64,000 nucleotides of DNA from Sulfuriflexus mobilis (GTDB lineage: Bacteria > Pseudomonadota > Gammaproteobacteria > AKS1), in NCBI RefSeq assembly GCF_003967195.1, contig NZ_AP018725.1:868001-932000 (forward strand), given 5' to 3'. Below, piece after piece: positions 2,792 to 41,328 of the stretch (positions are counted from its first letter, which is position 1; each line of letters opens with the position of its first letter). The notes beneath the pieces are model-generated. The model ran no database searches. It saw only the letters and a list, made by a program, of their open reading frames with translations, and had not been told where the DNA came from. The position numbers were made by a program, and so were the translations under genes.

Positions 2792-3640
2792 TTACTTCTC
2801 GGCGACAATATAACAGACCCAGCCGGCATCGGCCTCACCGACCTCGGTGGCTTCATAGTTGCCATCGCCTTCACCGTCTTCATCTTCGCCTTCCCAGTAG
2901 GCCTGTACTTTGGCAAAACCGGCCTCTTTGAGCAGTTCAAGCAGCTCCGGCATGGTCCACAGACGCCACTCATAGGTGAAGGCCTCTTTCATTTTTGAAC
3001 CATCAGGAAATTCGAAGTGAATATGGCAGACATAATCACCGTTAATCGGATTGTATTCTGACTGGTCCCAGGTATAGGTGAAGTCATCGTGCTCGGTGCT
3101 TTCTTCCAGCAGACGGAAGGCTTCGTAACCACCGAAACAATCGAGAAAGAATATACCATCATCCTTCAAAACTTCATGAATGCGCTTGAAGTAACCTCGC
3201 AGGGTGTCACGGTCCTTGAAACACCAGTAGCTGAAGTTCATGGCCAGTACCGCGTCCATCGGCTCGGTCTTCACGGTCAGGACGTTATCTTCCAACAGCG
3301 TGACGCGGGAAAGTTGCTCGTCGTTGAGCTTTGAAAGGTTGTGTTCACGCCCCCATTGCAGCACCTCCGGGTCCAGGTCGACACCAATGGCCTTGTTATC
3401 GGGACGGCGTTGTACCCATTCACAACAGACCTGCGAGGTGCCGGAGAAGTCCTCGCGCAACAGGCGCATCTTGCGGCCGCGAATGGCCTCGAAGGTCTCG
3501 TCGACAAAATCGATCTCGGTTTCGGCGTTTTGCACAGCCTCCTGGTAGAAGACATGGCGGTCGGCCTGTTCGGCCATGGTTGGGCCACTTTGTTGCTGTG
3601 CGCTGGATTGCTTGCGTTGTTTTCGTGATTGCTTAGCCAT
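2792..3640 (-). CDS. Class I SAM-dependent methyltransferase
   Basis: A 282-residue Rossmann-fold methyltransferase. The N terminus (about 25 residues) is basic and Gln/Ser-rich. Motif I is divergent (LREDFSGTSQVCCEWV instead of the usual D-x-G-x-G), followed by an acidic motif II (GVDLDPEVLQWG) and a motif IV region (MDAVLAMNFSYW). The C-terminal part is very acidic (EGEDEDGEGDG) before the last strand. The substrate cannot be read from the sequence. It shares its strand with the downstream fliK-like gene only beyond the oppositely oriented pentapeptide gene, and is probably its own unit or follows the aminopeptidase gene 26 bases upstream. Confidence 0.85.
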   Translation of the reverse strand: MAKQSRKQRKQSSAQQQSGPTMAEQADRHVFYQEAVQNAETEIDFVDETFEAIRGRKMRLLREDFSGTSQVCCEWVQRRPDNKAIGVDLDPEVLQWGREHNLSKLNDEQLSRVTLLEDNVLTVKTEPMDAVLAMNFSYWCFKDRDTLRGYFKRIHEVLKDDGIFFLDCFGGYEAFRLLEESTEHDDFTYTWDQSEYNPINGDYVCHIHFEFPDGSKMKEAFTYEWRLWTMPELLELLKEAGFAKVQAYWEGEDEDGEGDGNYEATEVGEADAGWVCYIVAEK

Positions 3641-3666
3641 AATGTTAACTACTTTACCATAGCCCT

Positions 3667-5145
3667 TTAAAGTTTGTCCTGTACCTGTCGTGATAATAAC
3701 AGTTCGAGTGTGAAACGTACGCCAAAACCGGTGATGTCAGTCGGGATGTGTGCCAGTCCCCCCTTATTGTTGCCTGCCGAGAGGTCAACATGTAACCACG
3801 GCACATCATCGACAAAGCGCTTGAGGAAACGGCTGGCAAGAATGTGATCAGCACCGCCATCCAGTGAGCACTGTTTAACATCAGCAATGTGGCTGTCGAG
3901 TGCCTTGTCGTAATCGTCGTCAATCGGGAAGGGCCAGACACGTTCGCCACTGTCACGACCGGCCTGGATGATGTCATCGATCAAACTATCACGATTGGTA
4001 AAGGCGCCACTGTAATTCGTACCGAGTGCGGCGACACAGGAACCCGTCAGCGTGGCGTAGTCGATGATCATGGCCGGTTTTTTCTTTGCCGCGAAGGCCA
4101 GTGTATCGGCCAGTACCATGCGTCCCTCGGCATCGGTGTGGATGATCTCGATGCTGGTACCGTTACTGGCGGTGACGACGTCATTCTGTTTATAGGCCTT
4201 CGGACCGATATGGTTCTGCGCCAGGGCCAGCCAGCAATCAACCGGGAAGTTGACCCTGAGCTCACTGAGGGCGAGGAAGCTGCCGAGTGCCACGGCACTG
4301 CCTTCCATATCCTCATGCATGCCGTGCATGTAACGCGCCGGTTTCAGGTTCATGCCGCCGGTATCAAAACAGATCCCTTTGCCGACCAGAGCGTAGGCCG
4401 GCTGGGCAGATTTTTTCTGCGGCTCGTAGCGTAGGTGCAGGATACCGGCATCTTCTTCCGGGCTGCCCTGGGCGACAGCGACGAAGGCACCGGCCTTTTT
4501 CTTGCGCAGCGCGGCCATGGTATGGAACTGCATCTTCCAGCCATGCTGTTTGGCCAGTTTGGCGACGCGTTTTCGGTATAAGCCGGGCGTGAGCTCGTTG
4601 GGCGGCAGGGTGGTGAGGTATCGGGCCAGGTTATTGCCGGCGGCCGAGGCCTCGACGCGGCGCGTATCCAGGGGTTTTTTCTGGTTATATATAAGAATAG
4701 ATTTAAGCTTACTGGCCGGGGCGGGCTTGGACTTCAGGCTCGGCATGCGTTCACTGGCGGCGAGCAGGGCGGCGAGCAGGGCCTCGGAGACGCGGCTGGC
4801 CAGCTTCGCCGGCAGGCCGGGCATACACAGGCTGAGGCTGGCCGGGTTTTGTGCCAGTTGTGGGGCGATCAGCTGGCGGGCCAGGCCGAGCAGGGCAAAC
4901 GGGCTGATATCCTCTTTCACGCAGCCGAAGCTGATATGGGTGCGTGTGGCGTTGGGCAGGTCACATTCGAGCACCGCCGATTCGGCCGGATCCCGGCTTA
5001 AACGCTCCTTGAGGACCTCGCGCCAGGCCACGGTAGGCCATTTTTCGTTCCGAATCCCCTCCGGCAGCACCATGACGAGGTTCTGACAGGTCTCCAGATC
5101 TGACTTTGTAAGTGTGCTTACATGTTGTTTTATCTTGATTTTCAT
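3667..5145 (-). CDS. Leucyl aminopeptidase, M17 family
   Basis: A 492-residue cytosolic M17 metallo-aminopeptidase. The catalytic C-terminal domain shows the metal-ligand and active-site signatures GKGICFDTGGMNLKP and HTDAEGRMVLADTL (family consensus NTDAEGRL). The N-terminal domain is divergent, and the first position of the signature is His rather than Asn. It releases N-terminal residues from peptides using two divalent metal ions. It is transcribed divergently from pdhA, with 98 bases between the starts, and is followed 26 bases later by the methyltransferase gene. The family call is firm; the symbol pepA is withheld because the N domain is divergent. Confidence 0.9.
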   Translation of the reverse strand: MKIKIKQHVSTLTKSDLETCQNLVMVLPEGIRNEKWPTVAWREVLKERLSRDPAESAVLECDLPNATRTHISFGCVKEDISPFALLGLARQLIAPQLAQNPASLSLCMPGLPAKLASRVSEALLAALLAASERMPSLKSKPAPASKLKSILIYNQKKPLDTRRVEASAAGNNLARYLTTLPPNELTPGLYRKRVAKLAKQHGWKMQFHTMAALRKKKAGAFVAVAQGSPEEDAGILHLRYEPQKKSAQPAYALVGKGICFDTGGMNLKPARYMHGMHEDMEGSAVALGSFLALSELRVNFPVDCWLALAQNHIGPKAYKQNDVVTASNGTSIEIIHTDAEGRMVLADTLAFAAKKKPAMIIDYATLTGSCVAALGTNYSGAFTNRDSLIDDIIQAGRDSGERVWPFPIDDDYDKALDSHIADVKQCSLDGGADHILASRFLKRFVDDVPWLHVDLSAGNNKGGLAHIPTDITGFGVRFTLELLLSRQVQDKL

Positions 5146-25831: not shown

Positions 25832-25872
25832 CGCAAATCCAGTAGAGTGGTGTCTATCCAGTGTCCTGAAAT

Positions 25873-26009
25873 TAACGCAGAGGGCGCAAAGACGCAAAGG
25901 TCGCAAAGAAAAAACTGATAATAACCCCACCTCATATTGGATAAAGATAAGGGAACCCGCATTCATGTATCCTTTGCGTTCTCTGCGTCTTTGCGGCCTT
26001 TGCGTTTAA
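25873..26009. repeat. Dispersed CGCAAAGG-type inverted repeat, copy 2
   Basis: The left arm (AACGCAGAGGGCGCAAAGAC, then GCAAAGGTCGCAAAG) and the right arm (CCTTTGCGTTCTCTGCGTC, then TTTGCGGCCTTTGCGTT) flank about 65 unrelated bases between rnfA and metG. It probably carries the rnf promoter region inside or beside it. Confidence 0.7.
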
Positions 26010-26032
26010 TACTGGATATCAGGTTGTACGCC

Positions 26033-29535: not shown

Positions 29536-30102
29536 ATGAGCATCAAAGCAGATAAGTGGATTCGCCGCATGGCGGAGCAGCACGGCATGATCGAGCCCTT
29601 CGAGCCGGGTCAGGTCAAGGAAAACGAGACAGGTCGCATCGTTTCTTACGGCACCTCGAGCTACGGCTACGATATCCGCTGTGCCGACGAGTTCAAGATC
29701 TTCACCAATATCAACTCGACCATTGTCGACCCGAAAAACTTCGATGAAAACAGCTTTGTCGACGTGAAGTCCGATGTCTGCGTGATCCCGCCGAACTCGT
29801 TTGCCCTGGCGCGCACCATTGAATACTTTCGCATCCCGCGTAATGTGCTCACCATCTGCCTCGGCAAGTCCACCTATGCGCGTTGCGGCATCATCGTCAA
29901 CGTCACGCCATTTGAACCGGAGTGGGAAGGGCACGTCACGCTCGAGTTCTCTAACACGACACCACTGCCGGCAAAGATCTATGCCAACGAGGGCGTGGCA
30001 CAGGTACTGTTCTTCGAGTCGGATGAGGAATGTGAGACCTCGTACAAGGATCGCGCTGGTAAGTACCAGGGGCAGGAAGGGGTTACTTTGCCGAAGACGT
30101 GA
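29536..30102 (+). CDS. dcd: dCTP deaminase
   Basis: A 188-residue homotrimeric enzyme converting dCTP to dUTP. It shows [15 protein letters not shown], the catalytic [21 protein letters not shown] segment read in two parts around the motif Glu, and the C-terminal [14 protein letters not shown] that closes over the nucleotide. The last 19 codons exist again, with seven synonymous differences, at 39633-39689. The codons here (GGG, TTG, ACG) look less native than those of the orphan copy, so this 3' end may be imported. Confidence 0.96.
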
Positions 30103-30384
30103 GACATCAAACCCTCTCGCTTGCTTGAGAGGTGCCCTGACGCCGAAGTCGTAGGGTACTCACAATGAAGCCGTAGGATTCTGTGAGAAAAGGGTGAGGG
30201 TGATATTTTATTTAAAAGCCGGGCAATGCCCGGCTTTTTTATTAGCTAAATCTAATGGAGCTTGATTATATAGTCATTTAGCGCAATGCTTTAGATAGCC
30301 TCTGGGGAAAGGTAAGTCATTCGTACAATAGGCCGCGGCGGCCTATTACTCAATAGTAACGACGCGGCCTAACAACTGTTATGC
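30046..30384 (+). repeat. Long direct repeat, left copy (dcd 3' end to GTTATG core)
   Basis: It contains the last 19 codons of dcd, an extra segment of about 50 bases, the dcd terminator, about 130 highly conserved non-coding bases (including the near-palindrome AATAGGCCGCGGCGGCCTATT) and a final CCTAAC-AACT-GTTATGC core. The right copy is at 39633-39919. The first cassette-like gene begins in the core. Confidence 0.9.
30214..30240 (+). terminator. dcd terminator
   Basis: Stem AAAAGCCGGGCA / TGCCCGGCTTTT followed by T-residues, 112 bases after the dcd stop. It is duplicated at 39747-39774. Confidence 0.88.
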
Positions 30385-31004
30385 CAAGAGAATCTGATTT
30401 CATGCCTAAACCCAATGCACCTAAAGCGATGACCTTTAAGTCACCAAAAGAGCTGAGTAAGTGGCTGCAAGCGAACCATGCCACCGAAAGCGAACTTTTG
30501 ATCAAGATGTTCAAAAAGGGATCTGGGATTCCGAGCGTGAACTGGAACGAAGTCGTGATTGAGTCGCTGTGCTGGGGGTGGATTGACGGTGTCAAGAAGT
30601 CGCTCGATGACCAAGCCTACCTTCAACGGATTACTCCGAGAAAAGCTCGAAGCAATTGGTCAAAGAGGAATACCGAACATGTCGATCGCCTGATAACTGA
30701 GGGACGGATGAAGGAGCCGGGGCTTGCGCATGTTCGTGCGGCGAAAGAGGACGGTCGTTGGAAAAACGCCTATACCACTAGTGAGATGAAGGTTCCAGCG
30801 GACTTTCTAGCCGCTCTTGAGAGCATGCCGAAGGCGAAACAGTTCTATGAGACGCTAACCAAATCCAATCGCTACGCAATTTCTTATGGATTGGAATCTG
30901 CAAAGAAACCTGAAACCAGACAGAGGAGGTTTAAAAATTTCATGGATAAGCTAATCCGCAAAGAGAAGCCTGACCTTGGCATCAATAAGGGGAAAAAGGC
31001 ATAA
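30381..31004 (+). CDS. YdeI/OmpD-associated family protein (cassette gene)
   Basis: A 207-residue cytosolic protein. Family landmarks are KSPKELSKWLQANHATESEL, VIESLCWGWIDGVKKSLDD and an ITPRKARSNWSKRN motif with a C-terminal KNFMDKLIRKEKP. YdeI-type proteins have been tied to stress or peptide resistance, but the biochemical role is unclear. The ATG at 30381 lies in the GTTATGC recombination core, so the Met at 30402 (MPKPNAPKAMTF) could be the original start. An attC-like site begins at the stop codon, which makes it a typical integron cassette gene. Confidence 0.82.
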   Translation: MPRESDFMPKPNAPKAMTFKSPKELSKWLQANHATESELLIKMFKKGSGIPSVNWNEVVIESLCWGWIDGVKKSLDDQAYLQRITPRKARSNWSKRNTEHVDRLITEGRMKEPGLAHVRAAKEDGRWKNAYTTSEMKVPADFLAALESMPKAKQFYETLTKSNRYAISYGLESAKKPETRQRRFKNFMDKLIRKEKPDLGINKGKKA

Positions 31005-31098
31005 CAAAAAGTTCAAGAGGGATTTCGAGAACACGCATTTTTTTGCAAAGAGCGCGAAAAACCGCCTGTTCTCGAAACCCCTTAACTAAGCGTTATGT
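30999..31098 (+). other. attC-like recombination site 1
   Basis: A 100-bp imperfect inverted repeat. The left end GCATAAC overlaps the stop codon, followed by AGTTCAAGAGG and ATTTCGAGAAC. The right end mirrors it with GTTCTCGAAA, CCTTAACT and the core GTTATGT. The order R''-L''...L'-R' and the size match integron attC sites. No conventional terminator or gene is present here. Confidence 0.65.
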
Positions 31099-31221
31099 GC
31101 CTTCACAGTTTATCAGAATCAGTCTCGTAAAATTTCACTGTACAAATATTTTGAATATTGACGCACTTGCATAAGGTAATCCGTCTTTATATTACTAATT
31201 GATATTCCGGATGGAGGCAAT

Positions 31222-31583
31222 ATGAAAAGCTATACATTAATTTTAACTGCCTACACAGGCGCTGGCCCCGAATTTGGTAGCGAAGAGTGGAAAGCCTATG
31301 CAGCAAAATGGGGGAGTTTAATGAAGAGGCAGGAAAGGCGGGTATTCTTAAAGCCGGTCAGGCAATTCAAGATCCGCACACAGCGAGAACCGTCAGAGTT
31401 AATGACGGAGCGATAGAAGTTCACGATGGTCCGTTCGCTGAAATTAAGGAAAATATCATTGGGTGGTATCAGATTGAATGTGAAGATATAGAAACCGCGA
31501 TCGAATGGGCCGCCAAAGTGCCCAATGCAAAATGCGGCTATGGTGCAGTTGAAGTTCGACCCGATATTAATCATGATACGTAG
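31222..31583 (+). pseudogene. DGPF/YCII family protein, frameshifted
   Basis: Two overlapping frames together encode one DGPF (YCII-related) protein of about 120 residues. Frame one gives MKSYTLILTAYTGAGPEFGS up to AYAAKWG; the second continues EFNEEAGKAGILKAGQAIQ, the diagnostic VHDGPFAEIKE and a C-terminal YGAVEVRPD. The break is in a run of five G at about 31310-31315, where six would restore the frame. It may be inactivation, phase variation or a sequencing error. DGPF genes always partner ECF42 sigma genes, as here 5 bases downstream. Confidence 0.8.
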
Positions 31584-31588
31584 TCACC

Positions 31589-32809
31589 TTGGATAAGGCG
31601 TTTTTTGAAAATGCGCTGAATGACGTCTACCAAAAGGAATGGAGTCGTACACTTGCCTTTCTTGTAAAAAGAACGGGGGATATATCCAAAGCGGAAGATT
31701 GTGCACAAGATGCATTCGAGCGTGCCGTCCAGCACTGGCGAAAAGAGGGTTTTCCTGATAGTCCTGGCGCATGGCTTCGAACCGTTGCCTTTCGTCAGTA
31801 TATCGATCAGGCCAGATCGGCAAGTTCCAGATCCGATGTCTTGAAGCGTCTAAAATTACTTGAAGAAGATCAGCATTGGGATATAGATGAAGTTGATATT
31901 GATCAGGAAGAGTTATCGTTATTATTTTACTGCGCTAACGATTCTCTAGACAAGTCCTCACAGGTTATGTTGATGCTCCGTGTATTTGGAGGTTTAACAC
32001 CGCGAGAAATAGCCTTTACTTTCTCATTGGAAAAAGAAGCGATCCGATCTCGTTTACTGAGAGCGAAACGAAAACTCAGGGAAAAGGGTTTTCCTCCGCT
32101 TAGTGAGAAAGCGGTGCGTGAACGCATTCCTCAGATACTTGCCGCTATCTATATCATGTACAATGAGGCTACATTTTCCAGCGTTGAATCGACCAATCAT
32201 CGTCATGATATGGCCACAATTTCGTTACGTTTGGCCGACAGATTGTCAGTTTTACTACCTTTAGAATCTGAAGTGCATGGGCTTTTGTCTTTGATATTAT
32301 TTGTTGAGGCGAGAGTCGCGGCAAGATCGGTTGATAGGAAAACGCTGATCCCTCTGCCAGATCAAGATAGAAGTTTGTGGTCAAAAGGCCTGATTTCTCG
32401 AGCCAATAAGCATCTCACCATAGCAAGCAAACTATCCGATCCAGGTAAATATATGCTAGAAGCAGCCATTCAAGGGCATCATTGTGATGCTGACAGCATT
32501 GAAGAAACCGATTGGAATGCGATACTAAGCTTATATAACCGACTATTACTTATTACATCCGATTGCTATGTCCAACTAAATCGTATTTATGCACTTAGTA
32601 AGGTCGTGGGACCTTCCAAGGCATTAACAGAACTTGAGGAATATTACACGATAGGTATTGAGGAAAATTACTTGTACCTCCTTGTGAAAAGCGAACTACA
32701 TGAACAGTTGGGTCAACGTGATAAAGCCAGAGACCTGCTTAAGCGTGCGATAGATAGAGTAAATAACGAAATAGTTAAAGGTGTGTTATTGGAGAGGCTC
32801 AAGAAATGA
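31589..32809 (+). CDS. ECF42-type RNA polymerase sigma factor
   Basis: A 406-residue ECF sigma factor with a TTG start right after the DGPF gene. Sigma region 2 includes DISKAEDCAQDAFERAVQHW and PGAWLRTVAFRQYIDQARS; region 4 includes LTPREIAFTFSLEKEAIRSR. The C-terminal half is the long DUF6596/TPR-like extension typical of ECF42 (IYIMYNEATFSS, LYNRLLLITSDCYVQLNR). There is no anti-sigma gene, as usual for ECF42, whose extension controls activity. An attC-like site follows, suggesting that the sigma/DGPF pair moves as a two-gene cassette. An upstream stop excludes a longer start. Confidence 0.88.
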   Translation: MDKAFFENALNDVYQKEWSRTLAFLVKRTGDISKAEDCAQDAFERAVQHWRKEGFPDSPGAWLRTVAFRQYIDQARSASSRSDVLKRLKLLEEDQHWDIDEVDIDQEELSLLFYCANDSLDKSSQVMLMLRVFGGLTPREIAFTFSLEKEAIRSRLLRAKRKLREKGFPPLSEKAVRERIPQILAAIYIMYNEATFSSVESTNHRHDMATISLRLADRLSVLLPLESEVHGLLSLILFVEARVAARSVDRKTLIPLPDQDRSLWSKGLISRANKHLTIASKLSDPGKYMLEAAIQGHHCDADSIEETDWNAILSLYNRLLLITSDCYVQLNRIYALSKVVGPSKALTELEEYYTIGIEENYLYLLVKSELHEQLGQRDKARDLLKRAIDRVNNEIVKGVLLERLKK

Positions 32810-32835
32810 GCTGTGATGGTCTAGTAAGGAATAAA

Positions 32836-32919
32836 ATATAACAAGCCAATCAAGATCGCACGCAAAAGGCGCGTGCTGGGACCGCCAAACTGCGCCGGCC
32901 CCTTATTGCAACGTAATAT
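32836..32919 (+). other. attC-like recombination site, degenerate
   Basis: Left end ATATAAC-AAG-CCAATCAAG; right end CCTTATTG-CAAC-GTAATAT. The L'' and L' arms pair with one extra base, as in attC sites, while the right core is GTAATAT rather than GTTRRRY. The central part holds GCACGC / GCGTGC complementarity. It begins 27 bases after the sigma gene. Confidence 0.5.
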
Positions 32920-32997
32920 ACACACAAAGAAAAATAATGGAGTAATGTAGATGATCGTAAGATCAAACTTACTACAGCACTTAAATGGAGAAAGGAA

Positions 32998-33669
32998 ATG
33001 AACAAGATCATACAGTTTGGTGAAGTTGTTGATGGTTATGACATACCGGTTTTAAACGAGCGCGAAATACGTGCCGCTGCAGGGCTATTGTTTCTAATGA
33101 TGTTTATCTCGGTGATGAGCGCAGCGTTGATTGCGAACTTTGTCATGCTGAAGTTTGCGGTCATTATATTCCTGACCGATATTATCATCCGCGTGTTTAT
33201 CAGCCCACGCTATGCACCCACGTTAATTCTTGGACGTTTAATTGTAAGAAATCAGAATCCTGAATATGTTGGTGCTGCACAGAAAAAATTTGCTTGGTAT
33301 ATCGGTATCGTATTGGGTGTGCTTTTTTTTACCTTTACCGTTGTGATGAATTCAGTTAGCCCGATCTCCGGAATTATTTGTTTTACTTGCCTGATCTTCC
33401 TGTTTTTTGAAGCTGCCTTTGGTATTTGCCTGGGCTGCTTGTTCTACCCCATGTTTTTCAAAGATAAGGTGCAATACTGCCCGGGTGAAGTTTGTGATGT
33501 AAATGACAAACAGGACATACAAAAAACATCTTGGTCACAGATACTCATCATGCTTGGCTTTATTGTGTTTATTATTATAATAGTAAATATATTTCATGAA
33601 AGCTTTAGCGAAATTCCTTATGACCTGTTCGGATTGGATGACACAGGCGTATTTAGGGAGTGGAAGTGA
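32998..33669 (+). CDS. DUF4395 family membrane protein
   Basis: A 223-residue protein with about five helices. The DUF4395-like pattern includes PVLNEREIRAAAGLLFLMMF, TDIIIRVFISPRYAPTLILG and the conserved GICLGCLFYPMFF with a CxxC-like pair. A C-terminal extra helix (LIMLGFIVFIIIIVNIF) precedes an acidic tail. The function is unknown; DUF4395 proteins often sit with thiol-redox proteins. It has a plausible GAAAGGA ribosome binding site and AT-rich codons like the rest of the island. No attC-like site is seen after it. Confidence 0.75.
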   Translation: MNKIIQFGEVVDGYDIPVLNEREIRAAAGLLFLMMFISVMSAALIANFVMLKFAVIIFLTDIIIRVFISPRYAPTLILGRLIVRNQNPEYVGAAQKKFAWYIGIVLGVLFFTFTVVMNSVSPISGIICFTCLIFLFFEAAFGICLGCLFYPMFFKDKVQYCPGEVCDVNDKQDIQKTSWSQILIMLGFIVFIIIIVNIFHESFSEIPYDLFGLDDTGVFREWK

Positions 33670-33722
33670 AATTAAAGGGGCTGCCAATATTTAATCAAAA
33701 CCAAGGTATTAAATAATGATTC

Positions 33723-34151
33723 TCATTTGTCACTGACTCCTTTTATTCCCGACCCATCGGCGATGGGTGAGGTACTCACAATGCACTTACAGGGTTCTGT
33801 GAAGTGTAGACAGAATGTGAGAGTGAGTTCTTTATAAGCAAGAATGTCTCGTAAACGAAAGTTTGTGCATAAAAGTGCTGGTATTGCGTTGACCAATTGA
33901 ATCCGCAGCCAAAAGCGGTCATTTGAAAAAGGGTACTGATCCCTTTCGGTTGTAAATTCGCGTCGACGCAAAGTCAAAGTGCGTCGTTCCGGGCCGCTAT
34001 AGATATTTTTAGACTCAAAGCTTCCCGGGCCCTGATTATTATCCATTGTTTTGAGTGAGAGCTCTCCGAAGTCAAAATCCGTACCTATTATTCTTCTCCT
34101 TCCATGTGGCAGTGATGTTTGGGGGGCATAAATACTATTAGATATTCGCAA
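33723..34151 (-). CDS. Doubtful hypothetical protein
   Basis: A 142-residue frame opposite to its neighbours. The first 110 residues look protein-like (SLPHGRRRIIGTDFDFGEL, SGPERRTLTLRRRE), whereas the C-terminal end is encoded by dispersed repeat sequence near 33.72-33.81 kb. No family is recognised. It may be a truncated gene that ends in a repeat. Otherwise the stretch 33670-34339 contains only repeats and the TetR operator. Confidence 0.3.
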   Translation of the reverse strand: MRISNSIYAPQTSLPHGRRRIIGTDFDFGELSLKTMDNNQGPGSFESKNIYSGPERRTLTLRRREFTTERDQYPFSNDRFWLRIQLVNAIPALLCTNFRLRDILAYKELTLTFCLHFTEPCKCIVSTSPIADGSGIKGVSDK

Positions 34152-34271
34152 TCAAGAATCGACCGCTACGCGGAAAATCAGGGCCGTTCGTCTTGACCGG
34201 AATCTCGCAAGTGCCAAAGCTATACCGTGTATTATTAATAACCAATAATTAATATGGTTATTGTGTTCTGA

Positions 34272-34303
34272 TAATATATTTGACTAATTAGTCAAATATA
34301 TTA
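34272..34303. promoter_or_regulatory. Perfect 32-bp palindrome, probable TetR operator
   Basis: The half-site TAATATATTTGACTAA is followed by its exact reverse complement, centred 52 bases before the TetR start. TGAC-TAAT-TAGTCA cores are typical TetR-family operators. It probably mediates autoregulation and control of the downstream pump. Confidence 0.75.
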
Positions 34304-34339
34304 TGATTGAAAAACATTGAATACACTATGGGAATATAT

Positions 34340-34969
34340 ATGGGGCGTTCACCCACCAACACAAAAGCCAAGCTTATTCAGACCGCGAATGACCTGATCT
34401 GGAAAAACAGCTATGGCTCTGTGAGCGTCGATGACATATGTACCTCCTCTGGAGTAAATAAGGGAAGCTTTTACTACTACTTTCCATCTAAAGTGGATCT
34501 GGCTATTGCTACCATGGAAGAGGCTTATCAAAGTTTTGAGCCAGAAATGGAAAAGGTATTTTCTGCAAGTGTTTCAGCAGCTGAACGTTTTGAGCGTCTG
34601 GCGGCTTTTGTCTATGAGAAGCAACTAGAAACATATAACAAATATGGACGTGTTTGTGGTTGCCCTTTTGCCTCGTTGGGTTCTGAGATGGCAGGAAAAG
34701 AGGAGGCTATACGAGAAAAAGTTGACGAAATTTTTCGTCGACAGGAGCAACTTCTCACAAGAACCATACAAGAGATGGCGGATGCCGGTCAGTTACCGCT
34801 GGAAACAGACTTCGCTGCCAAAGCTTCAGAGATCCATACGTTTATTATGGGGCAAGTTATGATGGCACGCATTCAAAATGATTTAACGAGCCTGAAGGAT
34901 GATGTAAGAACCGGTTTATTTCGCATCCTCAATATAGAAGAGCAAGTAACTATAGAGCCTCCAGAATGA
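34340..34969 (+). CDS. TetR/AcrR family transcriptional regulator
   Basis: A 209-residue regulator. The N-terminal helix-turn-helix reads SVSVDDICTSSGVNKGSFYY followed by YFPSKVDLA. The ligand-binding domain contains VCGCPFASLGSEMAG, with two cysteines in a position seen in redox- or electrophile-sensing relatives. I chose the ATG at 34340 (MGRSPTNTKAKLIQ); in-frame ATGs at 34307 and 34328 are possible. A perfect palindrome lies just upstream, and an RND adaptor-permease pair follows 79 bases downstream on the same strand, so it is the likely repressor of the pump. Confidence 0.9.
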   Translation: MGRSPTNTKAKLIQTANDLIWKNSYGSVSVDDICTSSGVNKGSFYYYFPSKVDLAIATMEEAYQSFEPEMEKVFSASVSAAERFERLAAFVYEKQLETYNKYGRVCGCPFASLGSEMAGKEEAIREKVDEIFRRQEQLLTRTIQEMADAGQLPLETDFAAKASEIHTFIMGQVMMARIQNDLTSLKDDVRTGLFRILNIEEQVTIEPPE

Positions 34970-35048
34970 TACGAGTTTCCCAAGGTAGTAGTAAGTTAAT
35001 CACTAAGTTGCCAACTAAAAGTACGGATAAGCGATTGGAGCTATTCTG

Positions 35049-36239
35049 ATGACAAAGACATTAAAGGGAGCCTCTTTCATAGGTGCAGCAATAACTATTG
35101 TTGTACTGGGAGTGGTTGGTGTCGTTCTAATTTTACAGGGTGTATCTGCATCAGAAACCAAATCTAATGCAAATGCAGAACAGCAGGCTATGCCTGTTGA
35201 AGTCGCGATTATCGAAGAACAAGCCATACGACTATGGAAGGATTTTTCAGGACATCTGACAGCCGTGGATTATGTCGAAATACGACCTCAGGTAACAGGC
35301 CTCATTACGGATGTGAAATTTGAAGATGGGCAGCTCGTCAGCAAGGGTGACATTTTATATATTATCGACCCTCGTCCACTTAAGGCAGCTGTTGATAAGG
35401 CAGAGGCAGAATTGATGGTTGCTCGTAACCGGTATACTTTAGCGGATAAAGAATACAAAAGGGCAAAAGACCTGATCAAGACAAATGTGATTTCGCAACG
35501 AATCTATGACGAGCGCATGAACACTAAATTGGTGTCCGAAGCGACAGTGAAGAGTGCTGCGGCACAATTATCAGAAGCAGAAATTAACCTGGGTCATGCT
35601 TACGTAAGGGCGCCTGTATCTGGTCGCGTCAGTCGCGCTGAAATAACTGAAGGTAACCTGGTTTCTGCAGGCCCCAATGCGCCTTTACTTACTGCGATTG
35701 TATCAAGTAAAAATATCTACGCAGACTTTGAGGTTGATGAGCAGACTTACCTGCGTTATGTACATGCTATTTCTCCGTCCAGGCAAAAGACGGCGAATAA
35801 AATTCCTGTAGAGCTTCGTTTGCAGAGTGATGAATTGATGTATCGAGGTAAAATTCATGCATTTGATAACAGAATAGACCGCTCATCAGGCACAATTCGT
35901 GCCCGTGCTATTTTCGATAATCCAGAAAATAAATTATTACCCGGCATGTACGTGCGCCTGAGGCTGGGGAGTGCTACTGAAGAAAACAGGATTTTAGTAA
36001 GTGAACGTGCTATTGGTACGGATCAGAATCGTAAATTCGTTTATGTCGTTAATGCTGAGAATAAAACGACTTATCGTGAAGTGCAGCTTGGCGACAGTAT
36101 CGATGGAGATCGAATAGTACGCTCTGGCCTGACAGTTGGGGACAAGGTAATTATACGTGGGCTGATGAGAATAAGACCTAATATGCTTGTTGAACCAAAA
36201 GTGTCTATAACGGCAAAGAAGGCTGCAGCCAAGTCCTGA
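35049..36239 (+). CDS. RND efflux periplasmic adaptor (MexE-like)
   Basis: A 396-residue membrane-fusion protein with an N-terminal anchor (GAAITIVVLGVVGVVLIL), a split lipoyl/barrel-sandwich domain (DYVEIRPQVTGLITDVKFED, then HAYVRAPVSGRVSRAEI), an alpha-hairpin between them and a C-terminal beta-barrel and membrane-proximal domain. It links the inner-membrane pump to an outer-membrane channel. The next gene is the cognate permease, 75 bases downstream. Confidence 0.92.
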   Translation: MTKTLKGASFIGAAITIVVLGVVGVVLILQGVSASETKSNANAEQQAMPVEVAIIEEQAIRLWKDFSGHLTAVDYVEIRPQVTGLITDVKFEDGQLVSKGDILYIIDPRPLKAAVDKAEAELMVARNRYTLADKEYKRAKDLIKTNVISQRIYDERMNTKLVSEATVKSAAAQLSEAEINLGHAYVRAPVSGRVSRAEITEGNLVSAGPNAPLLTAIVSSKNIYADFEVDEQTYLRYVHAISPSRQKTANKIPVELRLQSDELMYRGKIHAFDNRIDRSSGTIRARAIFDNPENKLLPGMYVRLRLGSATEENRILVSERAIGTDQNRKFVYVVNAENKTTYREVQLGDSIDGDRIVRSGLTVGDKVIIRGLMRIRPNMLVEPKVSITAKKAAAKS

Positions 36240-36314
36240 TTTACTAATTACAAAAACCAGCAGAGGATATGGTTTGGTGCCTATCTGTAGCAGGTTCATT
36301 TCCTAGGGTGAATT

Positions 36315-39300
36315 GTGAGTTTTTCAAGTCATTTTATTGACAGGCCAATTTCAGCGAGTGTGATCTCGTTATTGATATTTGTATTTGGTTTTGTCGCAAT
36401 GTTTCAGTTGCCGATTGCGGAATATCCGGAAGTGGCACCACCTTCAGTGATCGTCAATGCCTCATTCCCTGGCGCAAGTCCGTCTGTTATTTCAGAAACT
36501 GTAGCGACGCCTTTAGAAGAACAGATTAACGGTGTAGAGAATATACTCTATATGAATTCCTTGGCATCGGCGGATGGAAAACTGACACTGACAGTCACCT
36601 TTGCTATCGGCACCGATCCGGACTTATCACAACAATTAGTACAAAACCGTGTTTCGCAAGCACTACCAAGATTACCCGAGATCACTCGCCAACTTGGCGT
36701 TACCGTTGCAAAGAGCTCGCCTGACTTAACGATGGTAGTGCATTTACGCTCTCCCAATGAACGTTATGACATGCTTTACCTGCGTAACTACGGGACCTTA
36801 CATGTACGCGATCAACTGGCACAAATCCCCGGGATTGGACAGGTCAGGTTATTTGGTTCGGGTGATTATGCAATGCGTATCTGGCTCAATCCCGACAAGG
36901 TTGCCGAACGGGGGATGACGCCAGGCGAAGTCGTTAACGCGATTCGTGGGCAAAATATCCAGGTGGCTGCAGGAGTGATTGGCGGTCCACCTTATAAAGA
37001 CAATATAGAGTTGCAGCTGCCCATCAATATTCAGGGACGCTTACGCAGTGTGGAAGAGTTCGAGCAAATTCTTGTCAAGCGGGATAATAATGGAACTGTG
37101 ACGCGACTCGTTGATGTTGCCCGTATTGAACTGGATGCGCAGAGTTACGGACTGCGTTCTTTACTGGACAACAAACCCGCTGTTGCCATTCCTGTTTTCG
37201 CAGCCCCTGGCGCTAATGCACTTGATATTTCGGATAATGTGCGCAAAACCATGAAGAGGCTAAAAAAGAATTTCCCGGAAGACATGGACTACAGCATTGT
37301 CTACGACCCTACTGTTTTTGTCCGCAGTTCTATCAAGTCTGTCGTCGTGACTTTACTGGAAGCGATTGCCCTGGTCGTGTTGGTCGTCATAATCTTCCTG
37401 CAAACATGGCGAGCGTCAATTATTCCCCTGCTTGCTGTGCCGGTCTCAATTATAGGCACATTTGCATTTATGTATTTTCTCGGGTTTTCAATTAATGTCT
37501 TGTCATTATTTGGTTTGATATTGGCGGTAGGTATTGTTGTTGATGACGCAATCGTGGTGGTAGAAAATGTAGAACGAAATATCCGGCACGGAAAAACGCC
37601 GCGCGATGCGACTGTGCAAGCGATGAAAGAAGTGACGAGCCCGATTATTGCAACGTCATTAGTAGTGGCGAGTGTATTTATTCCTATCGCCTTTATCAGT
37701 GGCCTGTCTGGGATGTTTTATAAGCAGTTTGCATTAACAATTGTTATTGCCACCTTTATATCAACCTTGAATTCACTGACACTAAGCCCAGCTCTGTGTG
37801 CATTGTTGTTACGCTCGTCAGATGCCCCGAAAGATAAAGTATCCAAAGTTATGCAATATCTGTTTGGTTGGTTATTTAATCTATTCAATAAGGCATTTGA
37901 TAAAAGCCAGCACAGTTATACGAAACGCGTTCATGTATTTGCCACCCGTAAATTCATAATGATGGTAATCTTTACTGTCCTTGTTGGCTTTACCGCGTAT
38001 AGCTTTAAATTAGTACCACCCGGATTTATACCTGCACAGGACAAACAGTACCTGATCAGTTTTGCCCAATTACCAACAGGTGCAACGCTGGAGCGTACTG
38101 AAAAAGTGATGCGGCAAATAGCGGATGCTGCCCTCGCGGAAGAAGGTGTTGTGAGCGCGGTACAATTTCCGGGCTTATCCGTTAATGGATTTGTTAATTC
38201 GGCAAGCGCCGGTATCGTATTTGTTACCTTAGAGGACTTCGACAAACGAAAAGAACCAAGACTAAGTGCAGGTGCCATAGCAGGGCGATTGCAACAAAAA
38301 TACGGCGCTATTGAAGAGGCATTCATTGCTATATTTCCGCCGCCGCCGGTGCGAGGCCTGGGTACAACAGGAGGTTTTAAATTACAGATACTGGATCAGG
38401 CTGACCAGGGTTATAAGGCCCTGGATGATGTGGTTAATCAGGTTAAGAAAAAGGCGTCTACTGATCCTGCATTGACGCGTGTTTATTCTAATTACAATGT
38501 CAATGTGCCACAGTTATTCGCTAACCTTGATCGCACCAAGGCTGTACAACTCGGTATTCCTGTTGAAGAAGTGTTTCGTACAATGCAGATTTATCTTGGG
38601 TCTTTATATGTTAATGACTTCAATCAATTTGGCCGCACCTATCAAGTCATTGCGCAGGCCGATAAAGAGTTTCGTTCTACACCGCAAGATATTCTACGCC
38701 TGCAAACACGTAATAACGAAGGTCAAATGGTTCCATTGGGCTCAGTTATAAAGGTAGAAGAAGCATTTGGGCCTGAGGTCGCGATGCATTATAACACCTA
38801 CCGTTCAGCTGATTTGAACGGCAATGCTGCCCCCGGCTTTTCTTCCGGCGAGGCGCAACAAGCGATTGTGAAAATACTTAATGATACCTTGCCAGCGGGA
38901 ATGAGCTACGAATGGACTGAATTGACTTATCAACAAATTTTGGCTGGTAATACAGCAATATACATATTCCCATTATGTCTGTTTCTGGTTTTCCTCGTGC
39001 TTGCTGCGCAGTATGAAAGCCTTGCCTTGCCACTGGCCGTTATCCTGATTGTCCCGATGAGTATCTTATCGGCTATTGTAGGCGTCTACATTTCAGGTGG
39101 GGATAATAATATTTTTACACAAATAAGTTTATTCCTATTGGCAGGTTTGGCCTCTAAAAATGCAATCCTTATCGTTGAGTTTGCTCGTGACCTGGAGCGT
39201 TTGGGACGTACAACAATAGACGCCGCTGTTGAGGCTTCACGTCTGCGCTTACGCCCCATTCTGATGACGTCTTTTGCATTTATCATGGGCGTGTTGCCCT

Positions 39301-39473
39301 TGGTAATCACTCAGGGTGCTGGGTCAGAAATGCGTCAAGCCATTGGTGTGGCAGTTTTTTCCGGTATGCTTGGCGTAACCTTTTTTGGTTTGATATTCAC
39401 CCCTGTGTTTTATGTGGTGTTCAGAAGGCTTGAAATTGCCTTTAGTAAAGGAGAGAAGACAAGCAATCTGTAA
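36315..39473 (+). CDS. RND multidrug efflux permease (MexF-like)
   Basis: A 1052-residue hydrophobe/amphiphile efflux permease with a GTG start (MSFSSHFIDRPISASVIS). It has 12 helices in two repeats, large periplasmic loops after helices 1 and 7, and the proton-relay region of helix 4 with paired Asp (LILAVGIVVDDAIVVVENVE). It exports drugs or lipophilic compounds using the proton gradient. No outer-membrane channel gene follows, so the pump would use one encoded elsewhere. Codon use is AT-rich compared with the flanking core genes. Confidence 0.94.
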   Translation: MSFSSHFIDRPISASVISLLIFVFGFVAMFQLPIAEYPEVAPPSVIVNASFPGASPSVISETVATPLEEQINGVENILYMNSLASADGKLTLTVTFAIGTDPDLSQQLVQNRVSQALPRLPEITRQLGVTVAKSSPDLTMVVHLRSPNERYDMLYLRNYGTLHVRDQLAQIPGIGQVRLFGSGDYAMRIWLNPDKVAERGMTPGEVVNAIRGQNIQVAAGVIGGPPYKDNIELQLPINIQGRLRSVEEFEQILVKRDNNGTVTRLVDVARIELDAQSYGLRSLLDNKPAVAIPVFAAPGANALDISDNVRKTMKRLKKNFPEDMDYSIVYDPTVFVRSSIKSVVVTLLEAIALVVLVVIIFLQTWRASIIPLLAVPVSIIGTFAFMYFLGFSINVLSLFGLILAVGIVVDDAIVVVENVERNIRHGKTPRDATVQAMKEVTSPIIATSLVVASVFIPIAFISGLSGMFYKQFALTIVIATFISTLNSLTLSPALCALLLRSSDAPKDKVSKVMQYLFGWLFNLFNKAFDKSQHSYTKRVHVFATRKFIMMVIFTVLVGFTAYSFKLVPPGFIPAQDKQYLISFAQLPTGATLERTEKVMRQIADAALAEEGVVSAVQFPGLSVNGFVNSASAGIVFVTLEDFDKRKEPRLSAGAIAGRLQQKYGAIEEAFIAIFPPPPVRGLGTTGGFKLQILDQADQGYKALDDVVNQVKKKASTDPALTRVYSNYNVNVPQLFANLDRTKAVQLGIPVEEVFRTMQIYLGSLYVNDFNQFGRTYQVIAQADKEFRSTPQDILRLQTRNNEGQMVPLGSVIKVEEAFGPEVAMHYNTYRSADLNGNAAPGFSSGEAQQAIVKILNDTLPAGMSYEWTELTYQQILAGNTAIYIFPLCLFLVFLVLAAQYESLALPLAVILIVPMSILSAIVGVYISGGDNNIFTQISLFLLAGLASKNAILIVEFARDLERLGRTTIDAAVEASRLRLRPILMTSFAFIMGVLPLVITQGAGSEMRQAIGVAVFSGMLGVTFFGLIFTPVFYVVFRRLEIAFSKGEKTSNL

Positions 39474-39567
39474 AATTAGTAATACCCAGCCTATATTATA
39501 AGCACCATCCGGGTTCGATGATTTGCGCTTGGAAAATTGTTAGGCAAGTAATCGTTGCCTAAGAATA

Positions 39568-39624
39568 AAAGGGGTCGGTGACAAATGATTATGATAATGA
39601 TTCGTATTTGTCACCGACCCCTTT
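39568..39624. repeat. Palindromic element with 19-bp perfect stem
   Basis: AAAGGGGTCGGTGACAAAT pairs exactly with ATTTGTCACCGACCCCTTT around a 19-base loop. Related palindromes lie at 42364-42419 and, degenerate, near 33671-33747. It could also terminate the RND operon. Confidence 0.8.
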
Positions 39625-39632
39625 CTTGATAT

Positions 39633-39689
39633 AAGGACCGTGCTGGCAAGTACCAGGGTCAGGAAGGCGTTACTCTGCCGAAGACCTGA
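39633..39689 (+). pseudogene. Orphan 3' end of dcd
   Basis: This encodes [18 protein letters not shown] and a stop, identical in protein to the end of dcd at 30046-30102 but with seven synonymous changes. There is no start or upstream dcd sequence. It is the relic of a displaced or foreign dcd allele. Confidence 0.9.
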
Positions 39690-39746
39690 TCTCATCGACC
39701 CTCTCCCTTGACGGGAGAGGGCCAGGGTGAGGGTGATATTTTATTT

Positions 39747-39774
39747 AAAAGCCGGGCATTGCCCGGCTTTTTTT
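39747..39774 (+). terminator. Duplicated dcd terminator
   Basis: Stem AAAAGCCGGGCA / TGCCCGGCTTTT with a T-run, a copy of the terminator at 30214-30240. Confidence 0.85.
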
Positions 39775-39932
39775 ATTAGCTAAATCTAATGGAGCTTGAT
39801 TATATAGTCATTTAGCGCAATGCTTTAGATAGCCTCTGGGGAGAGGTAAGTCATTCGTACAATAGGCCGCGGCGGCCTATTACTCAATAATAACGCCGCA
39901 ACCTAACATACTGTTATGTTTAAAAGGAAAAA

Positions 39933-40499
39933 ATGGTGGAAATAATTATCATAAGACATGGAAGGCCAGTAATTGAAACATCACGGGCAATTTCAGCTAG
40001 CGATTTTAACAAGTGGGTACAGGCATATGATCAGGCGACTATAGATCAAGAGTATCAACCATCAAGTGAAACCATAAATATAGCCTCCCGCTGTACAAAA
40101 ATAGTCTGTAGCCATTTACCTCGCTCCATTGAATCTGCCAAGGCATTAAAAAAGACCCCTGATACAACGGAGTTTCTATTCAGGGAAGCCGAGATTCCAA
40201 GCGGAAGATGGACATATCCAAAATTTAAACCAAAAACATGGGCGATTATTTTTAGGGTTCTTCAACTATTCGGTTACAGTGCAAATGCGGAATCACTTTC
40301 AGAGATAAAAAATCGTGCACTGACTTGCGCTAATCAGCTCATTACATATGCAGAGCAACATGGTTCAGTTCTGTTCGTCGGTCACGGGACACTAAATTGG
40401 TTTATTCATAAACAGTTGATATCCATGGGGTGGCATGGGCCAACTAAAGCAAATAGTAAGCATTGGGGTTATGGGATATACCAATACAATCAAACATAA
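39933..40499 (+). CDS. Histidine phosphatase family protein (cassette gene)
   Basis: A 188-residue branch-1 phosphoglycerate-mutase-like phosphatase. The catalytic IIIIRHGRPVIET near the N terminus, the SHLPRSIESAKAL helix and the C-terminal VLFVGHGTLNWFIHKQ supply the two His and the Arg residues. The substrate is unknown. It starts 14 bases after the GTTATGT core and stops inside an attC-like site, so it has the layout of an integron cassette. AT-rich codons. Confidence 0.85.
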   Translation: MVEIIIIRHGRPVIETSRAISASDFNKWVQAYDQATIDQEYQPSSETINIASRCTKIVCSHLPRSIESAKALKKTPDTTEFLFREAEIPSGRWTYPKFKPKTWAIIFRVLQLFGYSANAESLSEIKNRALTCANQLITYAEQHGSVLFVGHGTLNWFIHKQLISMGWHGPTKANSKHWGYGIYQYNQT

Positions 40500-40590
40500 C
40501 AAGTGCATTAATTCGTTTGCTTTGCTCTCTTGGACAACCAAAAGCCGTGCTCTGCACGTTTTTGGCTGCCAATTATGCTAATCGTTAGGT
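40494..40590 (+). other. attC-like recombination site 2
   Basis: Left end ACATAAC overlaps the stop codon and continues AAGTGCATTAATTCG; right end mirrors it as AATTATGCTAATC with the consensus core GTTAGGT. The centre holds CCAAAAGCCGTGC / GCACGTTTTTGG pairing. At 97 bp it fits the attC pattern well. Confidence 0.72.
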
Positions 40591-40596
40591 GACACG

Positions 40597-41328
40597 ATGT
40601 TTGAAAGGAGTGCGTCAGATGATGGTTTTAAAACATGCCCAATCTGCAATTCTAAGGATGGGTTGGTAATTCGCTGGTACCCAGATCTTGATTATCATGT
40701 TCATGAATATACAGAAGTTGGATGTACTACATGTAATGTACTATTTCGTGGAGAAGAAGATAGGTATGCAGTTTCTGACTGGAATAGATATGTAATATCA
40801 GAGAACGAGAAGAAAGGAATTACAGAGTCACATGCAGACTTATATAGACTTCTACATGAGCACTATATAAATGAGAGAAATGAGAAGGATTCGAGACGAA
40901 AAATAGATGATTATTTAAAGGCGCATATTGCATCAACATGCCCTTTTAAAAAAAGTGATAGATTTAAAATACGTACTCGCCAAAACGGAATATGGTCTGT
41001 TGAATCAGTATATGCAGTATATGATTATACTAAGGGGCCATTTTGGATCATTAAAGCAATAAATGTTTTAAAAAGTGGCCGGATCGGGGATATTAGGAGA
41101 GAGATATGGCAGCGTGATCAACATTTGTTGACACCTCTTAAGCCATTTTGGAAACCATATAAGTGGAGTCAAGTAGTTAAAGGTGATACATGCCTATACA
41201 AAAGTAATACTGGTGAAATCGTCAATGTAGATCGCTTCTCGCGAGAAATAGAAATAGAAATAAATGAGAAAATAATAAACTTGAGTAGAATTAGCGATTT
41301 AATGGTACCAATATCAAGAGTTGAATAA
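40597..41328 (+). CDS. Zinc-ribbon protein with unknown C-terminal domain (cassette gene)
   Basis: A 243-residue protein. Residues about 12-65 form a Lar-like zinc ribbon: CPICNS, then VGCTTCNVLF and a following SDWNRYV that matches the WNR end of restriction-alleviation (Lar) zinc ribbons. The rest is charged and AT-rich, with an aromatic-rich segment (YDYTKGPFWIIKAINVL) and no family I recognise. It starts 7 bases after attC-like site 2 and ends 7 bases before an ACCTAAC half-site. A role against restriction or phage is only a guess from the ribbon. Confidence 0.75.
   Translation: MFERSASDDGFKTCPICNSKDGLVIRWYPDLDYHVHEYTEVGCTTCNVLFRGEEDRYAVSDWNRYVISENEKKGITESHADLYRLLHEHYINERNEKDSRRKIDDYLKAHIASTCPFKKSDRFKIRTRQNGIWSVESVYAVYDYTKGPFWIIKAINVLKSGRIGDIRREIWQRDQHLLTPLKPFWKPYKWSQVVKGDTCLYKSNTGEIVNVDRFSREIEIEINEKIINLSRISDLMVPISRVE

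Follow-up and report, generated by a model that had tools for sequence, protein, structure and literature searches.

Introduction

Few ECF systems are as widespread as ECF42 operons, of which both the signal and the spread are poorly understood. In the window analysed here, a 64-kb stretch of DNA corresponding to C1:868001–932000 of a one-contig 3.11-Mb genome, an ECF42-type sigma-factor gene stands beside a DGPF gene, and the locus raises the question of whether the two have been captured together as an integron cassette. An earlier note on this DNA had described the pair as bracketed by attC-like sites, which would make it a mobile regulatory module, with the DGPF gene broken in a run of five G. 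A cassette copy of this kind would be a complete sigma-plus-partner circuit, with an apparent promoter of its own, that can pass through integron capture, a route thought to carry mostly promoterless single genes.

Genomic setting

The pair lies in a low-GC island of ∼11 kb (36–48% GC versus 53–56% outside) that extends from dcd to a metallophosphatase gene (41739). The dcd gene (dCTP deaminase, 29536–30102, plus strand; TIGR02274, E = 3.5e-51) is the chromosomal gene that immediately precedes the integron remnant described below. In three genomes of the same genus (G001–G003), dcd is 94% identical at the protein level and the DNA match stops at the dcd stop codon; the DNA downstream of dcd in these genomes is unrelated and contains neither attI (by eye) nor cassettes, and the attI model R1 matched none of the three. 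An Rfam search returned one tRNA and nothing else, and PADLOC gave no match for five proteins of the cassette region.

The final 60 nt of dcd recur at 39630–39689 (plus strand, 87% identical). The eight differences over these 60 nt are all synonymous (by eye), as if this end had come from the functional dcd of another strain, and ∼186 bp of the DNA downstream of dcd are also repeated (30191–30376 versus 39724–39911, 96–98% identity). The second dcd end suggested an island put into the 3′ end of dcd by a tyrosine recombinase; we do not adopt this as the main reading because the 186 bp downstream of dcd are repeated too and because no such integrase is seen among the ORFs between the repeats. 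A TetR-type regulator followed by membrane-fusion-protein-like and RND-pump-like genes (34307–39473; recognized by eye, with a search for TetR) occupies part of the low-GC DNA that separates the two attI sites, and hairpin repeats flank this group of genes at ∼33740 and 39570–39625.

The DGPF and sigma-factor genes

The sigma-factor gene (31589–32809, plus strand) has a TTG start and an intact frame encoding a 406-residue protein with sigma regions 2 and 4, a DUF6596 domain and weak TPR matches. Region 2 matches Sigma70_r2 (PF04542) with 33.3 bits (cut-off 24) and region 4 matches Sigma70_r4_2 (PF08281) with 24.2 bits, slightly below its cut-off of 25.7; the match to TIGR02937 scores 59.2 bits (cut-off 42.9). 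DUF6596 covers residues 179–277 (E = 4.7e-23) and the weak TPR matches cover residues 367–392. The protein is thus an ECF-type sigma-70 factor with the C-terminal extension of ∼200 residues and TPR-like repeats that characterizes ECF42. The AlphaFold model (mean pLDDT 82.7) shows helices over its whole length, the C-terminal half included, with helical pairs continuing to the C-terminus, and Foldseek placed TPR superhelices and ECF sigma factors at the top of its matches, none of them at E ≤ 0.001. No other gene of the genome carries DUF6596.

A YCII/DGPF gene (31222–31583, plus strand) lies directly upstream, as is usual for ECF42, and is broken as read. Its N-terminal part starts with an ATG at 31222 preceded by a good ribosome site, and the ORF at 31287–31583 matches YCII (PF03795, E = 5.9e-12, profile positions 20–91) and contains the DGPF motif. 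The sigma start follows the DGPF stop by 5 nt. The matches to PF03795, DUF6596, Sigma70_r2 and Sigma70_r4_2 bear out the earlier identification of an ECF42 sigma factor paired with a DGPF gene.

Relatives of the sigma factor at E ≤ 1e-30 occur in 33 of the 369 class genomes, and the nearest among the matches listed are 34–36% identical to it; 80 loci from genome_contigs are at most 37% identical, and the plasmid search gave relatives of less than 60% identity only. Searching viral_contigs with the protein, or genome_contigs with it as the sole query, returned pattern matches and no close relative. A YCII-type ORF is present in 99 of 109 related loci and lies directly upstream on the same strand in 83 of them, in line with the ECF42–DGPF association that the note had taken as its starting point; among the remaining 26, three have less than 700 nt of upstream sequence.

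Upstream of the YCII gene in these relatives, the motif TGTCGA-N16/18-CGTC was found at nine or ten of its ten positions in 41 of the 82 regions that could be compared (the upstream sequence was too short at one of the 83 loci), against three of 82 shuffled regions, and the spacer is 17 in 34 of the 41 strong-motif relatives. This motif agrees with the S. meliloti RpoE10 promoters as printed in PMC6180224. In the window, a candidate ECF42-type promoter, TGACGC-N17-CGTC (31159–31185, plus strand), is located 36 nt before the DGPF start codon. It agrees at eight of ten positions with a spacer of 17, a score that 103 of 5000 shuffled versions of the 130-bp region also attained, and departs from the motif at position 3, where every one of the 41 strong relatives has T. 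The pattern TGWCGN-N17-CGTC, in which W was chosen after the site had been seen, occurs once on the two strands of the window against an expectation of 0.85. A scan for sigma-70 promoters gave no plus-strand match near the pair.

attC sites and cassette borders

A first hand-made attC scan was too strict and missed most known attC sites, and a relaxed version still missed five of 14 hand-picked control sites; a covariance model, R2, was therefore used. The training set of R2 comprised 12 attC sites from the two complete integrons of the genome, from a further array at C1:475 kb and from the cassette located near 39.9 kb; both sites flanking the pair were left out. Its pairs are the seven R′′/R′ pairs only, since the L boxes were too poorly aligned to be written as pairs, and its E-values are rough owing to a shortened calibration. 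A long, near-perfect intergenic inverted repeat at 25870–26010 with GCAAAGACGC-type arms was considered as an attC and rejected, although a simple hairpin scan had given it a higher score than true attC sites.

Over the whole window, on both strands and with E up to 10, R2 gave three matches only, namely the training sequence at 40494–40590 and the two sites that bracket the pair. The upstream border, attC 1 (30999–31098, plus strand), scores 33.9 bits (E = 1.5e-5), has the R′ box GTTATGT and gives strand-fold z values of −4.37 and −5.84. The downstream border, attC 2 (32836–32919, plus strand), is degenerate: its R′ box GTAATAT (32913–32919) has GTA in place of the crossover triplet GTT. The bracketing proposed in the earlier note, for which failure in a covariance search had been named as a possible refutation, therefore stands at both ends, with a non-standard R′ and a weak fold (z = −0.01/−1.90) at the second. 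From crossover to crossover, the putative cassette 2 holding the DGPF and sigma-factor genes would span 1821 bp (31093–32913, plus strand).

Upstream of it lies cassette 1 (30379–31092, plus strand), with an ORF (30381–31004) for a YdeI/OmdA-family protein (PF13376, E = 6.4e-20). A copy 95% identical over 30373–31095 is found on the minus strand near C1:2296 kb, within the array of one of the two complete integrons (integron B), the match extending from the crossover to the end of the attC. Similarity between the attC halves is lower, at 74%, which indicates that the exchange was not very recent. Downstream of cassette 2, a DUF4395 membrane-protein gene (32998–33669, plus strand; PF14340, E = 7e-25) may be the remains of a third cassette; with the R2 filters off, no attC above 8 bits was found in 32919–39900.

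attI sites

The array begins at an attI site (attI 1, 30313–30383, plus strand, with the crossover G at 30378), recognized by alignment and by R1, a sequence model of 15 attI sites, with 71.5 bits; the site is itself one of the 15 R1 rows. A second site, attI 2 (39847–39918, plus strand; 69.2 bits, also an R1 row), lies where the attI 1 flank recurs at 96–98% identity. The site of ∼70 bp recurs 9.5 kb downstream, and it is also present at C1:474848 and in seven other genomes of the 369 sampled. At C1:474848–474920 it adjoins a divergent integron-integrase fragment (TIGR02249 positions 9–79, E = 4.9e-4), and in genomes G051 and G336 the motif stands at the beginning of a full-length long-form intI (frames of 518 and 480 codons, respectively), with ORFs on the opposite side. 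Aligned with these two, the window sites have the same inverted arms and the end ACTG^TT. Recurrence in other genomes and next to long integrases shows that 30300–30376 belongs to an attI and is neither a chance secondary site nor the end of an attC.

No integrase adjoins attI 1 or attI 2 in the flanks examined, so that neither begins a complete integron, and for this reason the array of the pair is called an integrase-less integron (CALIN in the usual terms). Two integrases only exceed the TIGR02249 cut-off in the genome, at C1:236895 (integron A) and C1:2300065 (integron B), ∼630 kb and 1.4 Mb distant, and their attI sequences are other ones (by eye). The strong matches to R1 in the genome are three (62.7–71.5 bits), all of them R1 rows; weaker matches are located at C1:2669296–2669366 (25.8 bits, E = 2.1e-5) and C1:572256–572284 (17.1 bits, E = 0.011), and behind each of these two comes an ORF and then an attC or the beginning of one (R2 26.1 bits at the former, locus L258; by eye at the latter). 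One attI type is therefore seen five times in the genome, two of them weak, each time followed by at least one cassette-like ORF and only once with a piece of integrase beside it.

Among the 369 sampled class genomes, 28 have an R1 match at E ≤ 0.001, and 12 of these 28 have it in at least two places (hand count, matches on both strands merged). In other genomes, the 12 loci that score 54 bits or more and have flanking sequence available comprise one with a full integrase, six with an N-terminal fragment and five with none in the flank, the flanks being ∼0.3–1.5 kb and one of the five negatives having 264 bases upstream; R2 finds an attC at E ≤ 0.1 in six of the 12. These counts are a lead and not a result, since many of the genomes are drafts and several of the loci are R1 rows.

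Probable origin of the cassette

Taken together, the attC brackets, the attI site and the copy of cassette 1 in integron B identify the pair, as far as sequence can show, as cassette 2 of an integrase-less integron that still has its attI as well as two cassettes with their attC sites. In our reading, the DGPF–ECF42 operon was probably captured as one two-gene cassette in an integron downstream of dcd, the integrase of which has since been lost. The low GC of the island, the sigma architecture with its DGPF partner and the promoter motif derived from relatives speak for this reading as well. An ordinary chromosomal operon beside integron debris is not favoured because the held-out model finds sites on both sides of the pair and otherwise only its own training site. 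It could also be that cassette 1 alone is a true cassette, that the DGPF–sigma DNA was acquired in some ordinary way after its attC and that the downstream site resembles an attC by chance. The degeneracy and weak fold of attC 2 would fit such a history, as would the absence of cassette-borne pairs among related ECF42 loci (0 of 109), yet we consider it quite unlikely: R2, trained without the site, places it third among its three matches in 64 kb, with 21.4 bits and a window-wide E of 0.012; its R/L-box score, which is independent of R2, was matched by five of 2000 shuffles of its 188-bp gap; its first base lies 27 nt beyond the sigma stop, the place expected for an attC at the 3′ end of a cassette; and the 726 kb of sequence around the 109 other ECF42 genes (609,111 bases for 80 genes and 117,067 bases for 29), serving as a control, yielded no R2 match at E ≤ 1.

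If capture as a two-gene cassette is accepted, the ECF42 literature suggests how the module would work. The operon would be read from its own ECF42-type promoter just inside the cassette, the sigma factor feeding back on itself through that promoter, and the TPR-rich C-terminal half, rather than an anti-sigma factor, may set its activity by protein contacts, as has been proposed for ECF42 (PMC8999054). The cassette would be independent of the integron Pc since it brings its own promoter and sigma factor. As the DGPF gene is broken as read, the host would be left with a sigma factor that lacks its customary partner, and the module may be dead. Exit of the cassette could now proceed only through an integrase supplied in trans, of which the genome has two of another type, and probably poorly because the 3′ attC has lost the GTT triplet. 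Of the 'mobile regulatory module' of the earlier note, carriage on a cassette is upheld by the attC model, the attI and the cassette 1 copy; its present mobility appears doubtful, with no adjoining integrase, GTA at the 3′ site and no second DUF6596 copy in the genome.

A broader possibility is that the genome holds dispersed integrase-less mini-integrons, with one attI type in at least five places, each with one to a few cassettes, and that the ECF42–DGPF pair is the self-promoting cargo of one of them. We regard this as rather unlikely. If it were true, attI platforms lacking their integrase would multiply or persist as landing sites for enzymes acting in trans, and regulators with a promoter of their own would be cargo that does not need Pc. 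Orphan attI sites in any case offer a sequence handle for integron remnants that go unnamed by tools for intI and attC, and raise the question of whether such sites are dead or served in trans.

The frame break in the DGPF gene

The DGPF gene does not form a single intact reading frame. The frame from 31222 ends at 31416, and the YCII frame takes over from the five-G run at 31310–31314 (plus strand), where the two frames join. On a small DGPF profile, the read-through protein scores 104.8 bits over positions 3–116, compared with 96.1 bits for the second part alone and −1.1 for the first part alone; this two-frame fit agrees with the break reported in the earlier note. The read-through gene (31 + 89 codons) contains no further stop. 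A single lesion points to recent decay or to error, and the odds of recent decay and sequencing error are about equal. G/C runs are frequent in the 64-kb window: 53 are five bases long, 18 six, one seven and one nine, and 55 of the 73 fall inside open ORFs of at least 120 residues, a count biased by the fact that broken ORFs would escape it.

A homopolymer error in the assembly, with the gene intact in the living cell, has close to an even chance. The lesion is alone and lies in a G-run, and the candidate promoter, the ribosome site and the 5-nt junction to the sigma gene are all kept; against this, the 55 runs within open ORFs, with the bias noted, imply that such errors are infrequent in the window. 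A true recent pseudogene, as the first decay step of a stranded cassette, we put slightly short of even. The platform has already decayed, being without an integrase, with attC 2 damaged and with no attC after DUF4395, although the sigma frame remains open across 406 codons and the lesion is single. A regulated frameshift or phase-variable tract that couples DGPF to sigma expression is very improbable. A slip at the G-run would fuse two open frames, and with only 5 nt between the DGPF stop and the sigma start translation of DGPF could affect sigma; nevertheless, the upstream DGPF gene is a single open frame in 13 of 29 class loci, namely those for which it was listed, and five G make a short tract for switching by slippage. 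Such runs are common in the window, so that this one is not a special tract, and the suggestion of phase variation in the earlier note is not retained.

Comparison with known systems

The sigma factor resembles the ECF42 proteins S. meliloti RpoE10, P. putida ECF-10 and S. venezuelae Sven_0747, as described in PMC6180224 and PMC8999054 and in our own locus counts, in joining sigma2–sigma4 to a long TPR-type C-terminal extension, and in having a YCII gene directly upstream and no anti-sigma gene among the adjacent ORFs; the known systems have a promoter of the TGTCG-N17-CGTC kind, to which the candidate in the window comes close. Unlike these, the window pair is placed between attC sites behind an attI, its DGPF gene is broken as read, its candidate promoter is one conserved base off and it shares at best 34–37% identity with any relative found. 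With two attC sites (30999–31098 and the degenerate 32836–32919) and no integrase nearby, the locus has the form of a CALIN, defined as a cluster of attC sites lacking an integron integrase (PMC9024848); CALINs are thought to be decayed integrons that can be mobilized in trans (PMC9024848, PMC12444791). It differs from a CALIN in keeping a recognizable attI, twice at the locus and more often in the genome. Integrons A and B share one recognizable attC type with the locus, and B has the cassette 1 copy, whereas their integrases are short (∼330 residues) and their attI sequences different. At the long-form integrase loci G051:C212 and G336:C21, the attI motif occupies the same place relative to the cassette side, but an integrase is present.

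All of the parts are of known kinds: ECF42, integron cassettes, CALINs, two-ORF cassettes (PMC12444791) and cassette-borne regulators, of which a LysR fragment is an example (PMC2669170). Judged from the sequence comparisons, the ECF42–DGPF pair as an integron cassette appears to be an unusual setting for a known module. The literature searched, which included few subscription journals, contained no ECF42–DGPF pair in an integron cassette, a negative that carries little weight. Less expected is how many orphan attI sites there are.

Integron B (L006, G000:C1:2300065–2300952) adjoins an ilvD-like gene, recognized by eye, and Xanthomonas integrons have been reported beside ilvD (PMC12444791). 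The same transposase-like ORF pair is seen by eye inside an attC in both complete integrons (L057, ∼17340–16030, minus strand; L058, ∼3180–4480), in the same kind of position within the attC. Behind attI 2, the first cassette contains a histidine-phosphatase-like ORF (39933–40499), and its attC (40494–40590, plus strand) is the R2 training sequence noted above. The second cassette (40597–41328) has a weak N-terminal match to a Lar restriction-alleviation protein (E = 0.0015, below the cut-off), and its attC is truncated at ∼41350.
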